Shown here: positions 2,399 to 22,500 of the stretch, in pieces | Layout of the letters: the number at the start of each line of letters is the position of its first letter | Numbering within the stretch: position 1 is the first letter of the stretch | Virus record (IMG/VR): IMGVR_UViG_3300049893_002244 | Span: 1-52,656 of that record | DNA from: a virus | Length of the DNA stretch: 52,656 nt | Direction: 5' to 3' (one strand) | Translations under genes and position numbers: made by a program | Notes under the pieces: model-generated | Databases searched by the model: none | What the model was told of the DNA's origin: nothing | What the model saw: the letters and a program-made list of their open reading frames with translations, nothing else

Positions 2399-3793
2399 AT
2401 GCTAACCGATACCACCGGTCTTCTGCGTCCACAGATTCCGCACGCCAATACGCTGCTGCGTTCACTCGTTGAAAACGGTTTCGCTCTGGATATGAGCGAA
2501 ACCGGCACGGGCAAGAGCTATGCATCTGCGGCCATCGCCCGGGAACATCGTGGACCCGTCGTCCTCATTTCCCCAAAGGCAGTTATTCCGCAGTGGCTCA
2601 AGGTGCTGATGAAGTTCGGCGTCAAGCCTCTCGTGATTGTAAACTACGAGAAGATTGGACGTGGCAACACTCCTTGGATGAAGTGGAAGAAGCTGCCCGA
2701 CCCGATGAAGCCGTGGAAGGAAGGCGAGGTTGTGGAAATGCCTTTCTTCAAGTTTCCTGCCAACGCTCTGGTCATTCTTGACGAAGGCCATCGCTGCAAG
2801 GGCAATGACACCACCAATGCGTGGATGCTCATCGCGCTCAAGCGTCAGGGATACAAGGTGCTCGTGGCCTCTGCTACTCTCGCGACTACTCCGATGGAAA
2901 TGCGCGCCAGTGGATATCTCAGCGGTCTCCACGCGCTCTACAATTTCAGCGACTTCTGCCGCGTGCATGGTGCTGCGGACGTGGGTCGATATGGTGCTCT
3001 GTCTTGGAATGCGGACAATCCCGAAGCCAAGAAGGCCATGATGCTGCTCAACCAGTATCTCTTTGAAACCAGCAAGTGCGCATCTCGTATGCGCGTGGAA
3101 GACTTTGGAGACCTGTTTCCCGAGAGCCATATCGTGGCCGAGGCATATGACCTTGGTGCGAATTCCAGCAAGGTGCAGGAGGCTTACGAGGAAATGGAGC
3201 GCGAAATCGCCAAGCTGGAAAAGCGCTGTGAGAACTACAGCGAACACATCTTCGCCATCATGATGGCTGCACGTCGCAAGAGCGAACTCCTCAAGGTTCC
3301 TCTCTTTGCGGAAATGGTGGAAGACCTCTTCGACGAAGGCAAGAGCGTTTGCATCTTCCTCAACTTCGAAGACAGCATCGATGCCCTGCGTTCACGTCTC
3401 GTGAAGACGAAGAAGTTCGACAAGCTCATTGGATACATCGTCGGCGGCCAGAACGCTGAGACCCGGCAGAAGCATATCGATGAGTTCAATGCGGACCAGC
3501 GCCGGGTGATGCTCTGCAATATTAAGGCGGGCGGCATCGGTGTGAGCCTTCACGACCTCAACGGCAATTTTCCACGTGCTAGCATCGTGAGCCCGAACTT
3601 CAGCGCTTTCGAACTGGTGCAAGCCCTCGGTCGTGTCTGGCGTCAGGGTGGTTTGACCAAGTCCTATCAGAACATCGTGTTCGCAGCTGGCACAATTGAG
3701 GAGCAAGCTTGCCGACGTGTGCAGGCTCGCATCGACAACCTGTCTACGCTGAACGATGCCGACCTTCGCGAAGGCATTCAGATTTTCGGTTAG
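2399..3793 (+). CDS. SNF2-like superfamily 2 DNA helicase/translocase, 464 aa
   Basis: Walker A ETGTGKS (about residues 34-40), Walker B-type LVILDEGHRCKG (about 125), motif III-like VASATL, and a C-terminal RecA domain with FLNFEDS, the segment IKAGGIGVSLHDL and QALGRVWRQG (motif VI arginines). This is the SNF2/UvsW-like SF2 layout with both RecA lobes in a compact 464 residues and no accessory domain, as in phage remodelling or recombination helicases. It starts 35 nt from its own promoter and ends in a strong terminator, so it is monocistronic. Confidence 0.9.
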   Translation: MLTDTTGLLRPQIPHANTLLRSLVENGFALDMSETGTGKSYASAAIAREHRGPVVLISPKAVIPQWLKVLMKFGVKPLVIVNYEKIGRGNTPWMKWKKLPDPMKPWKEGEVVEMPFFKFPANALVILDEGHRCKGNDTTNAWMLIALKRQGYKVLVASATLATTPMEMRASGYLSGLHALYNFSDFCRVHGAADVGRYGALSWNADNPEAKKAMMLLNQYLFETSKCASRMRVEDFGDLFPESHIVAEAYDLGANSSKVQEAYEEMEREIAKLEKRCENYSEHIFAIMMAARRKSELLKVPLFAEMVEDLFDEGKSVCIFLNFEDSIDALRSRLVKTKKFDKLIGYIVGGQNAETRQKHIDEFNADQRRVMLCNIKAGGIGVSLHDLNGNFPRASIVSPNFSAFELVQALGRVWRQGGLTKSYQNIVFAAGTIEEQACRRVQARIDNLSTLNDADLREGIQIFG

Positions 3794-6646: not shown

Positions 6647-7480
6647 CAATTTACGGGGGGTATGACCTCCGACAGCATCGCAAGATGTTGTGAAGATACG
6701 CCAATCGAAAGGTTGGGAAAGGTAGAGCACCCAAGCTCTATCGCCGCTTCGCGGTCAGTTATACAAGCGTAGTCTCTTGGCTTTACCCGTATGGAGTAGA
6801 GCTATGTTCGAAGAGTGATAGACTGTAGCCGTTCAAGTTCCAGAGCCAATCGGTGAGGATATAAGAAGGTGGAACCTTCCGGGGCGGTCTTACCAACATT
6901 CGAGAAAGGAAGATGAAGCGTATGATACATGCTGCGAGGTATTGCAACCGAGTGGTGAGTATCAGTTGGCGATGGTAGCGTTGGCTCGAAAGGGCTGGCT
7001 GTCTATCTTTGACAACCGGATAAACTACATGCAAGTAGAATCTAAGGCGATGGTTCTTATACACTGGCTCAAAAGGTCAGTCGTAGATGCCAGAGCACGT
7101 CGCTATTGGGTATCGCCCGCAAAGGGCACCGAATATTGAATTCGACCATACAAAAGCATAAGCCTCTGGCTCTGTGAACCGAAAAAGGTTTAAGTCCATC
7201 CGTAAGAAGGTGGAGCGCGTTGGGACCGCAAGTCCTGATGTGTTTGATAAGAGAAGTAAGCGTTGTGGGGGTTTAGCGGCCTTCGCACGTTGAAAGTCCT
7301 GTCGAGTAAGTTCACGGTAAACTCTACTGCATGAGTCTAAACTAGCAACCTTGGCCGATACGACCCGCGAGGGCGTGGACAAGCTGGGAAAAAATAATCC
7401 AGCGAAAGTCGGGACCGTTTAGGGTGTAATCTCAACCCGTTGAAAATCTTTAGGCCACTCTTAGCGGAGTGGCTTTTTTG
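6647..7480 (+). ncRNA. large structured non-coding RNA, about 0.8 kb
   Basis: No credible reading frame on either strand, but helices are dense: CAGCATC-GCAA-GATGTTG (6673-6690), CCAATC-GAAA-GGTTGG (6701-6716), CCGC/GCGG (6744-6754), GAAGGT-GGA-ACCTTC (6865-6879), TTGGCTC-GAAA-GGGCTGG (6981-6998), GCCC/GGGC (about 7115-7127), CCC-GCGA-GGG (7364-7373), GCTGG/CCAGC (7383-7403), and a terminal terminator. Four GNRA loops suggest a compact tertiary fold. Size, tRNA neighbour and phage context recall the giant ornate RNAs GOLLD and ROOL; identity with either is not shown. Confidence 0.65.
7454..7479 (+). terminator. intrinsic terminator ending the large RNA
   Basis: GCCACTC / GAGTGGC with a 6-nt loop followed by TTTTTT. 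Confidence 0.85.
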
Positions 7481-11457: not shown

Positions 11458-11532
11458 GCCGAGTTAGCTCAATGGTAGAGCACCTGTTTTGTAAACAGGC
11501 GGTTGTCGGTTCGAGTCCGACACTCGGCTCCA
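11458..11532 (+). tRNA. tRNA-Thr (TGT)
   Basis: Full cloverleaf: acceptor GCCGAGT/ACTCGGC, D stem GCTC/GAGC, anticodon stem CCTGT/ACAGG with loop TTTGTAA, T stem GTCGG/CCGAC with TTCGAGT, discriminator T and encoded CCA. All stems perfectly paired. Confidence 0.97.
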
Positions 11533-11535
11533 TAC

Positions 11536-11612
11536 GTCCCTATCGTCTAGTTGGTCTAGGACACCACCCTTTCACGGTGAGAACCCGGGTTCAAATCCCG
11601 GTGGGGACGCCA
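11536..11612 (+). tRNA. tRNA-Glu (TTC)
   Basis: Acceptor GTCCC.../...GGGAC, anticodon loop CTTTCAC, T arm CCGGG-TTCAAAT-CCCGG and encoded CCA, closely resembling bacterial tRNA-Glu. The outermost anticodon-stem pair is a C-A mismatch. Three bases separate it from tRNA-Thr. Confidence 0.95.
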
Positions 11613-11865
11613 CTTTCAAGCGCCGGATTTTCGACCGACGCCTCGTAGATGGTAGCGCAGACCGAAACACTAGGAAATCATATTACCTCTGGGAATCCTG
11701 CTTCTCCTTATGTGCTGATGGGATTCAAACGAGCCAGCGGGCCATCTACTTTTAATTTCCGACTAAGCGCGCAAAAGTCGGCGCAGATTTGGTAGCTGCG
11801 TCAACAAAGACTCACCCGGGGCTGGCCCGACCGAAATATCGTGGCCACTATTTTTCAGTTTGTGC
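11613..11865 (+). ncRNA. structured RNA downstream of tRNA-Glu
   Basis: No gene. An 8-bp helix GTAGATGG/CCATCTAC (11645-11652 with 11742-11749) closes a roughly 105-nt element containing ATTCAAAC like a T loop, but it does not form a cloverleaf. CCGACT/AGTCGG (11759-11781) and CGCAG/CTGCG (about 11782-11800) follow. May be a tRNA-derived or processing element. Confidence 0.5.
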
Positions 11866-12211: not shown

Positions 12212-12216
12212 AAGGC

Positions 12217-12245
12217 TTGACTTTTGATAAGAACAGTATCACACT
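12217..12245 (+). promoter_or_regulatory. promoter of the 12.2-12.85 kb RNA locus
   Basis: TTGACT, GATAAGAA core, CACACT near -10. A perfect 9-bp hairpin AAGAACAGT/ACTGTTCTT (12229-12251) overlaps the -10 region, which could be an operator. Confidence 0.55.
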
Positions 12246-12251
12246 GTTCTT

Positions 12252-12850
12252 CCAATCGTGAGGTGGGCCTCACAACAACTCCAACGCCGGGTAGGCCCGG
12301 CAATCACTTTCAGTTCTTTGTATACAAACACCGATAAGAGGGGCGTGTGAAATAAAACGCCGAAGAACTTCACCCTCTGATTGTGGGGACCGCTGGTCCC
12401 ACGGCGAGAGCCATCGGAAACCCAGCAAACAATTTCTATCCCTTAGAGCCGATGCCATGTGTGCTAGGATTGGGATATGTGGGGACGTTATACCCTGATG
12501 CCCGAAAGGGGGTTTATGGGAAGTTGCCACAAAGATTTCGGTGTAGCATGTGGCGTTAGGGGAAATCCCGAAGCGTCAAAGGAATGCAGCCTCACTTTGA
12601 ACGAGGAAGCGTGGGTTTCGAGCCCCACACACTGATTATGACCGAGCGCACCCGGGGTAAACTGGGGGGACCGTGGTGAAAATCCCGGCATCGTCCAAAA
12701 GCGGCGGTGTGGTGTAACTAAGAGGTCATTGGGGTGTCCTGAGCATGACGTTAAAAGGTTCTTGGCGTTCACGCGCCGTAAACACCTCTCTGCGTCCAAA
12801 ACCGGGCGGGAGTTCGTGAAGGTGGGGTAAAAGTCCCAAAACCATTTCTT
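12252..12850 (+). ncRNA. second large structured non-coding RNA, about 0.6 kb
   Basis: No credible gene. Helices in order: GTGAGG-TGGG-CCTCAC (12258-12273), GCCGGG-TAGG-CCCGGC (12286-12301), GGGACC-GCT-GGTCCC (12386-12400), CCC-GAAA-GGG (12501-12510), a tRNA-like part with GTGGG/CCCAC around TTTCGAG (about 12610-12630), and GGCG/CGCC (12764-12777) inside AGAGGT/ACCTCT (12721-12726 with 12784-12789). No clear terminator before the gene at 12854. Class unknown. Confidence 0.6.
12311..12324 (+). promoter_or_regulatory. boxA-like element 5
   Basis: CAGTTCTTTGTATA, 60 nt into the second large RNA, after two leader hairpins. Confidence 0.45.
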
Positions 12851-12853
12851 TCA

Positions 12854-13297
12854 ATGTTCAAATTCAACGACCAGCTATCCGTGGGTGGGAGCGGGGAAGC
12901 ATTCTTCCTTTCGCTCCATCCTTGGTTGAACAAGGCTGACGGCATCAAGTTTGACTTTGAACGCGACGGCAAGAGTGTCGAGTTGAAAACCGACACCTAC
13001 TCCATGAAGCGCACGCCAAACTTCTTCATGGAACGATACAGCGACACCGAGCGAGGAACGCTTGGTGGTCCGTGGCGAGCCGCCCGAGACAACGTAGACT
13101 ATTTCGTTTACATGTATGCCACCGAGAAGGTGTGCTTCTGGTTCGACAGCAAAGAGCTTGTAGCGTTTCTCGATGAGTATTGCAAGAGCAAGCGCCTCGT
13201 GGAGATTCCCAACAAGAGTTGGGTGACGACAGGATATCTCGTGCCACGCTCTGCTGTTGAGCATCTTGTGAAAGTTAAAAGTGGCAACAAAACTTGA
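12854..13297 (+). CDS. PD-(D/E)XK nuclease-like protein, 147 aa
   Basis: GSGEAFFLSL (Glu15), KADGIKFDFERDGKSVELKTD with Asp34 and Glu43-Leu-Lys45 form the Glu...Asp...E-x-K signature of restriction-endonuclease-like folds. The middle RTPNFFMERYSD segment resembles phage resolvase/endonuclease relatives. Small size suits a single-domain nuclease cutting DNA junctions or host DNA. Expressed from the 3' end of the RNA locus, as no separate early promoter precedes it. Confidence 0.65.
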   Translation: MFKFNDQLSVGGSGEAFFLSLHPWLNKADGIKFDFERDGKSVELKTDTYSMKRTPNFFMERYSDTERGTLGGPWRAARDNVDYFVYMYATEKVCFWFDSKELVAFLDEYCKSKRLVEIPNKSWVTTGYLVPRSAVEHLVKVKSGNKT

Positions 13298-22203: not shown

Positions 22204-22205
22204 GC

Positions 22206-22257
22206 TTGACTTTTTTATAACATATGGCAGTGTGAAGACCTCACACTGCCTTTTTTT
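22206..22257 (+). promoter_or_regulatory. early-type promoter followed by an attenuator for the 22258 gene
   Basis: TTGACT with TTTTTATAAC core. Instead of the usual CACTYT-N7-ATG the downstream part is a complete terminator ending at the ATG. Confidence 0.65.
22226..22257 (+). terminator. intrinsic terminator abutting the 22258 start codon
   Basis: Perfect 10-bp stem GGCAGTGTGA / TCACACTGCC, loop AGACC, then seven T directly joined to ATG. It may end the upstream operon or attenuate the downstream gene. Confidence 0.8.
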
Positions 22258-22500
22258 ATGACCAAAACAATCGAAAACTTTCAACACGGTTTCACCATCC
22301 TCGGAGTCATCGCGTTTGTGCTCATTCTGCTGGTGCTGGCGTTTCATACATTCAACATTTTGAAGAATGCCATCCGAGACACCCTCAAGTGGCCGTTCAA
22401 TTATAAACTTCCTCTCGTGTTCCTTGGGAACCTGTGGGACCAGTTCATCGCTGAGTGCCAAGGTCAGGAAGTCGTGATTAGTCCAGTCAAAAAGGATTGA
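22258..22500 (+). CDS. small membrane protein, 80 aa
   Basis: One hydrophobic helix (about 14-34), then a soluble tail with WPFNYKLPLVFLGNLWDQF. The ATG follows a terminator T-tract with no leader, so expression probably depends on escape from the terminator. Confidence 0.65.
   Translation: MTKTIENFQHGFTILGVIAFVLILLVLAFHTFNILKNAIRDTLKWPFNYKLPLVFLGNLWDQFIAECQGQEVVISPVKKD

Follow-up and report, generated by a model that had tools for sequence, protein, structure and literature searches.

Does a phage that already carries one giant noncoding RNA encode a second, unrelated one, and would such an RNA act on its own or as the leader of the next gene? GOLLD, ROOL and other large RNAs of phages are abundant and functionally unexplained. 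The question arose for a 52,656-nt IMG/VR virus record (IMGVR_UViG_3300049893_002244), which was analysed as a whole and is called the window here. A preliminary description had placed a large structured RNA at 12217-12850 (+ strand), here named RNA2, and considered it different in make-up from another RNA at 6.6-7.5 kb. The window has T4-like features, namely RNA ligase, PhoH and weak similarity to baseplate wedge proteins, and RNA2 adjoins tRNAs and the RNA ligase in this phage; ARAGORN places tRNA-Thr and tRNA-Glu at 11458-11612, just upstream.

RNA2 has a conserved fold in two phages

A homologue of RNA2, 79% identical, was found in one related phage (contig L001, in G001); contig L002 carries the same version. 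Both are IMG/VR contigs and were reached via the protein encoded downstream. RNA2 is known in two distinct sequences, and support for its base pairs comes from one pairwise comparison. Protein searches with the downstream gene, the upstream gene and the helicase as queries returned G001 and G002 only, and exact-pattern scans of viral contigs with stretches of RNA2 found the known relatives only. Three candidate relatives (L005, L007 and L008) were rejected as chance matches within coding DNA. Among 50,697 phage records, blastn with RNA2 matched only the pseudoknot element described below. Of the covariance-model searches that had been suggested, a full Rfam scan of 12217-12850 matched no family even at E<=5, and models of two parts of RNA2 found nothing else among 1 Mb of loci.

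The two-sequence consensus fold computed with RNAalifold reached -392.6 kcal/mol, compared with -305.1 +/- 9.4 in column shuffles (z -9.3), and 16 pairs are fully compensatory, with both sides changed between the window and the homologue. The same procedure gave z -8.5 for the GOLLD RNA of the same two phages and, for two coding segments with comparable identity, z -2.9 and -1.6. Single-sequence folding was only mildly unusual (z -1.3 for the window, z -2.5 for the homologue), hence folding of one sequence alone would have missed the structure. Both minus-strand ORFs spanning RNA2 are broken in the homologue and, as judged from the sequences, RNA2 is not coding. Because of the consensus-fold z, the compensatory pairs and the broken minus-strand ORFs, all from one pairwise comparison, we conclude that 12217-12850 encodes a real conserved structured RNA. 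The proposed second large structured RNA is therefore borne out, and the conserved pairing in a related phage that had been set beforehand as its test is present.

The flanks of the homologue differ: RNA2 is preceded there by an extra gene and followed by 127 nt of other sequence. Since RNA2 and its promoter are nevertheless found in both phages, the element behaves as a module. The 127-nt segment (L001 5869-5990), located between RNA2 and the next gene, is itself a module confined to the homologue and is closed by CGTAGG/CCTACG. A third conserved noncoding element was observed at 11645-11749, between tRNA-Glu and a 102-aa gene. It has a tRNA-like 3' half and is closed by GTAGATGG/CCATCTAC, which reads ATAGGTGG/CCACCTAT in the homologue and amounts to two compensatory changes; the fold test of the whole region, made on a poor global alignment, was not significant (z -0.8).

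Promoter, predicted start and boxA

RNA2 is preceded by a phage-type promoter, CTTGACTTTTGATAA...TCACACT (12216-12251, +), which belongs to a set of 70 promoters, from the window and from G001, whose consensus is CTTGAC(T/A)TTT..ATAA..TCACTCT. In most of these an ATG lies exactly 36 nt past the first C; therefore, most genes of the phage are probably expressed from mRNAs that are leaderless or nearly so. By the same rule, transcription of RNA2 would start at about 12252, directly 3' of a perfect 9-bp inverted repeat (12229-12237/12243-12251, +) that lies within the promoter. The promoter and the overlapping hairpin that had been noted are both present in the sequence, the hairpin probably outside the RNA. 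As the predicted start follows the repeat, we regard this dyad as a promoter feature and not as a part of the RNA; it is probably not transcribed and probably serves as an operator. In the homologue it reads AAGACTAGT/GCTAGTCTT; two of the changes are compensatory and one is a wobble change. A comparable dyad occurs at no other promoter, save two that are followed by a terminator-like hairpin. At 22205-22260 and at G001 49461, a promoter is followed at once, before the ATG, by a hairpin of 9-10 bp that resembles a terminator and has a T-run; such units may produce a very short RNA or act as an attenuator.

Downstream of the predicted start, two perfect 6-bp hairpins (12258-12273, GTGAGG/CCTCAC, and 12286-12301, GCCGGG/CCCGGC; +) have stems that are unchanged in the homologue, and a 12-base palindrome lies at 12317-12328. 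Three consecutive perfect hairpins had originally been described after the dyad (12229-12251); the two hairpins and the palindrome were confirmed in the sequence, as was the boxA-like antitermination element AGTTCTTTG (12312-12320, +; GTTCTTT[GA] copy at 12313). BoxA is typical of untranslated stable RNA. A GTTCTTTRA-type box near the 5' end of the untranslated RNA2 has the sequence and the position of an rRNA-type boxA, and the spacer of the E. coli rrnA operon carries boxes of the same kind, GTTCTTTGAA and GCTCTTTAAA. Five of the seven + strand GTTCTTT[GA] copies of the window fall in the tRNA, GOLLD and RNA2 regions (6026, 6290, 6633, 11448 and 12313), and in G001 all three copies are in stable-RNA regions, at matching sites.

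Domains of the RNA2 body

The body of RNA2 (+ strand) begins with a three-way junction (12337-12341/12374-12378, 12342-12346/12357-12361 and 12362-12371), in which two pairs are compensatory and none is broken. It is followed by a 7-bp hairpin, GTGGGGAC/GTCCCAC (12383-12402), with one compensatory pair and a pair probability of 0.99. Two further arms, 12437-12442/12472-12477 and a long one at 12478-12486/12523-12531, show one compensatory and several one-sided changes, and a 16-nt insertion in the homologue lengthens an arm within 12437-12531. The long arm (12478-12531) is tipped by a CCC-GAAA-GGG hairpin; this loop had been reported before and is indeed found, as CCCGAAAGGG, at 12501-12510.

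A tRNA-like cloverleaf occupies 12538-12635 (+). In the predicted fold, a 7-bp acceptor-like stem (12538-12544/12629-12635) encloses an enlarged D-arm (12546-12587), an anticodon-like arm (12590-12606) and a T-arm (12611-12628) that is stacked directly on the acceptor-like stem. The segment agrees with a tRNA in the order of the arms, the 7-bp acceptor-like stem with the T-arm upon it and a variable region of 4 nt; it differs in its 42-nt D-arm with internal helices, its 4-bp anticodon-like arm with a 9-nt loop and the lack of a CCA end. The earlier assignment of a tRNA-like segment with a T-arm is backed by the acceptor-like stem, in which two changes are compensatory and two one-sided, and by the D-arm, with one compensatory change; the T and anticodon-like stems are invariant. 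The best non-self match of a cloverleaf covariance model in 1 Mb was a true tRNA, at an E-value of 0.66 only.

The next domain is a multi-helix junction (12646-12649/12712-12715, with hairpins 12651-12666, 12671-12688 and 12689-12709; +), whose five compensatory pairs belong to the outer helix or to the third hairpin. The closing helix proposed at 12721-12789 fared less well: four of its six pairs are kept in the homologue, two are lost, and its pair probability is low (0.28). The 3' region (12793-12837, +) consists of a hairpin at 12793-12808, with one compensatory change, and a T-loop-like hairpin, GGG-TAAAAGT-CCC, at 12825-12837. The last 31 nt of RNA2 are invariant in both phages.

A pseudoknot shared with many phages

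RNA2 also contains a pseudoknot domain (12735-12762, +) that is absent from the preliminary description. It is a copy of a phage-wide H-type motif, NGWC-CUGAGYAU-GWCN-NUAAACUGCUCA. P1 (12735-12738/12747-12750) and its loop read TGTC-CTGAGCAT-GACG in the window and GGTC-CTGAGTAT-GACA in the homologue, where the outer pair is lost. In the motif, the tail AAACUGCUC(A) pairs with UGAG of the loop to form P2. The homologue has this canonical sequence (L001 5744-5772), whereas the tail of the window has diverged to AAAAGGTTCT in place of AAACTGCTCA, limiting the candidate P2 (12741-12743/12759-12761) to GAG/TTC. A competing helix, 12758-12760/12781-12783, has one compensatory change, and within RNA2 itself P2 lacks support of its own.

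The lead to the motif was a weak blastn match, which revealed that unrelated phages also have the GTCCTGAGTATGACACTAAACTGCTC of the homologue, just past stop codons. The pattern CCTGAGTATGNCNNTAAANTGCTC matches at least 120 viral contigs. A slightly stricter pattern with 21 fixed bases matched only seven stretches in 257 Gb of prokaryote genomes, and the pseudoknot is very rare in bacterial genomes. The motif had no match in Rfam 15, and a literature search for its sequence returned nothing on phages. Across 136 distinct copies, the three pairs of P1 are the top three covarying column pairs (with two-sided changes in 67, 21 and 65 cells), and one position of P2 (UGAG/CUCA) covaries (125 G-C, 8 A-T, 3 G-T). 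The loci considered are 12735-12762 of the window together with L020-L138, L015-L019 and L148-L163. Copies usually lie between a stop and the next start, with median distances of about 16 nt from the stop and 47 nt to the start of the next ORF. Elsewhere the pseudoknot mostly stands alone between genes, whereas in RNA2 it forms a domain within a long RNA.

Up to seven copies occur per locus (L039), or seven in tandem (L077). In the latter array (1340-1730), seven variants, some with a longer linker, are arranged between two genes in a manner reminiscent of type III antitoxin repeats. Contig L029 has the pseudoknot directly 3' of a permuted tmRNA gene (2885-3284). In Chaseviridae coliphages and in the crAss-like Burzaovirus, the pseudoknot is found within regions of 0.6-1.2 kb that lack ORFs and adjoin tRNAs or tRNA-like segments; RNA2 is placed similarly. 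The region of the Chaseviridae, of about 1 kb (L153 843-1863, L148 1295-2222, L152 653-1868), contains the pseudoknot, then a covarying AAAG hairpin and, in most cases, a tRNA-like segment with an enlarged D-loop; it is probably another uncharacterised phage lncRNA. Homology between this RNA and RNA2 beyond the pseudoknot was looked for and could not be shown. In Burzaovirus, the pseudoknot is near the 3' end of a region of about 0.6 kb (L149 982-1614, L151 983-1530), and in cr124_1 two tRNA-Val genes follow. A general tie of the pseudoknot to tRNA-like RNAs was rejected, as T-arms nearby are not enriched (0.088 vs 0.076 per kb). Mimicry of 16S rRNA h6-h7 was likewise unsupported: 5 of 150 shuffles scored just as well, with four targets tried.

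Relation to GOLLD, ROOL and tRNA genes

The first RNA (6.6-7.5 kb) could be identified as GOLLD. Model RF02032 matches 7045-7438 over all 416 model positions (E 7e-39), with a score of 140.3 bits that is just below the Rfam curated cut-off of 150. This RNA has a tRNA-Met upstream and ends in an intrinsic terminator (7452-7475); a scan for its pattern found G001 only. RNA2 would share much with it, being large, branched, phage-encoded and, as the location of GOLLD in phages near tRNA genes would have it, just past tRNA-Thr and tRNA-Glu, with the true GOLLD 5 kb upstream. Both units have a phage promoter and boxA-like elements. It is this setting, along with a similar size and a multi-branched fold, that could make RNA2 a very divergent GOLLD or ROOL RNA. 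However, the GOLLD model has its single match in the phage at 7045-7438 and none in 12217-12850 at E<=5; the ROOL model (RF03087) matched nothing in this region at E<=5 and, in a search that had no working positive control, nothing across 20 records. RNA2 shares no significant sequence with the first RNA (best blastn E 0.43), is shorter, lacks the intrinsic terminator and contains, besides a tRNA-like domain, a pseudoknot module that belongs to another family. We hold this kinship to be most improbable, and the claim of a different make-up stands. Because the model tests failed despite the similar setting, which for ROOL also means a large phage RNA beside tRNA islands, RNA2 was filed under neither family. 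Highly improbable, too, is an origin of RNA2 from a cluster of tRNAs by decay or rearrangement, with its helices as tRNA remnants. Its place downstream of the two tRNA genes, the tRNA-Ala that sits between the tRNAs and RNA2 in the homologue, and the cloverleaf with its T-arm plus other T-loop-like hairpins would suit such an origin, but a decayed cluster would not show compensatory changes along all 600 nt, at a strength like that of GOLLD. Moreover, one segment only is tRNA-like, and neither ARAGORN nor Rfam calls a tRNA or tmRNA within RNA2.

Other phages offer parallels. Phage K produces two abundant lncRNAs, lnc001 and lnc002, each beside tRNAs (PMC9241854), and in ICP1 an unclassified RNA of ~800 nt is the most abundant transcript (PMC7567579). 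RNA2 resembles these abundant ORF-less RNAs of 0.6-1.1 kb from lytic phages, although its models R1 and R2 match nothing in the phage K regions.

A free-standing RNA or a leader

The gene that follows (12854-13297, +) encodes a 147-aa protein, a possible PD-(D/E)xK nuclease, and has no promoter of its own. The homologous protein is 88% identical. Searches of Pfam, PHROG and PDB returned no match, the AlphaFold model has a pLDDT of 38.7, and the PD-(D/E)xK-like motif is visible by eye only. As had been pointed out, there is no terminator ahead of the gene (12790-12854); in either phage, neither a terminator nor a CTTGAC-type promoter lies between RNA2 and the gene. Read-through is therefore expected, and the downstream gene is probably expressed in this way. 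The same lack of a boundary in both phages would fit a very long structured 5' leader that controls the gene in cis, like a multi-domain riboswitch or a protein-binding leader; a very long leader had been put forward as an alternative in the preliminary description. In both phages this gene comes next after RNA2, in the window the ATG lies 17 nt past the end of the last hairpin, and elsewhere the pseudoknot module lies upstream of start codons. In the homologue, however, an unrelated, foldable stretch of 127 nt intervenes between RNA2 and the gene, hence no fixed expression platform would reach the start codon. BoxA, the tRNA-like fold and a structure of ~590 nt are unlike known leaders, and in a phage whose genes mostly appear leaderless a 600-nt mRNA leader would be exceptional. 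Because most other promoters appear to fire at the start codon and because of this 127-nt spacer, we consider a leader unlikely and give preference, with some reserve, to a processed RNA acting in trans.

On balance, we thus lean towards RNA2 as a boxA-transcribed, trans-acting, free-standing noncoding RNA with read-through into the next gene. In favour of this reading are a fold as strong as that of GOLLD, the 16 compensatory pairs, the absence of coding, the module-like occurrence, the concentration of boxA copies in the tRNA, GOLLD and RNA2 regions, the GOLLD/ROOL-like context and the precedent of the two lncRNAs beside tRNAs in phage K (PMC9241854). The lack of an intrinsic terminator, unlike GOLLD of the same phage, speaks against it. 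RNA2 would be an RNA of ~590 nt (~12252-12840), transcribed from its own phage-type promoter with the operator-like dyad. Antitermination of the rRNA type at boxA would allow this long, untranslated and highly folded RNA to be completed; the polymerase would continue into the next gene, and processing would release the stable RNA. It might then act in trans as a modular scaffold that combines the cloverleaf with its enlarged D-arm and the pseudoknot module, the most likely target being the translation machinery (the ribosome or tRNA-handling factors). This choice of target was guided by the tRNA-like domain and by the reported binding of ribosomes to GOLLD in pull-downs (PMC12286853). The conserved structure, the promoter class, the enrichment of boxA, the tRNA-like fold, the kinship of the pseudoknot and the missing terminator were observed directly; we infer the start, the processing, the action in trans and the target, and the suggested link to translation derives from the anatomy of RNA2 and the GOLLD report.

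Implications

More tentatively, and with doubt prevailing, RNA2 could be the first to be described of a new class of large noncoding RNAs in phages, one that is distinct from GOLLD and ROOL. Its pseudoknot, which otherwise lies between genes, might recruit or block one conserved host component (the ribosome, RNA polymerase or an RNase), in mRNAs as well as in RNA2. The presence of GOLLD and a second, unrelated giant RNA in one phage, with the same promoter type and boxA, suggests a broader RNA toolkit, and the shared boxA suggests that rRNA antitermination machinery protects the synthesis of large phage RNAs. RNA2 has also led to a compact, strongly covarying pseudoknot that occurs in more than 100 diverse phage contigs and is absent from Rfam. 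As this pseudoknot is found in cultivable E. coli phages, the Chaseviridae, its function is open to direct testing.
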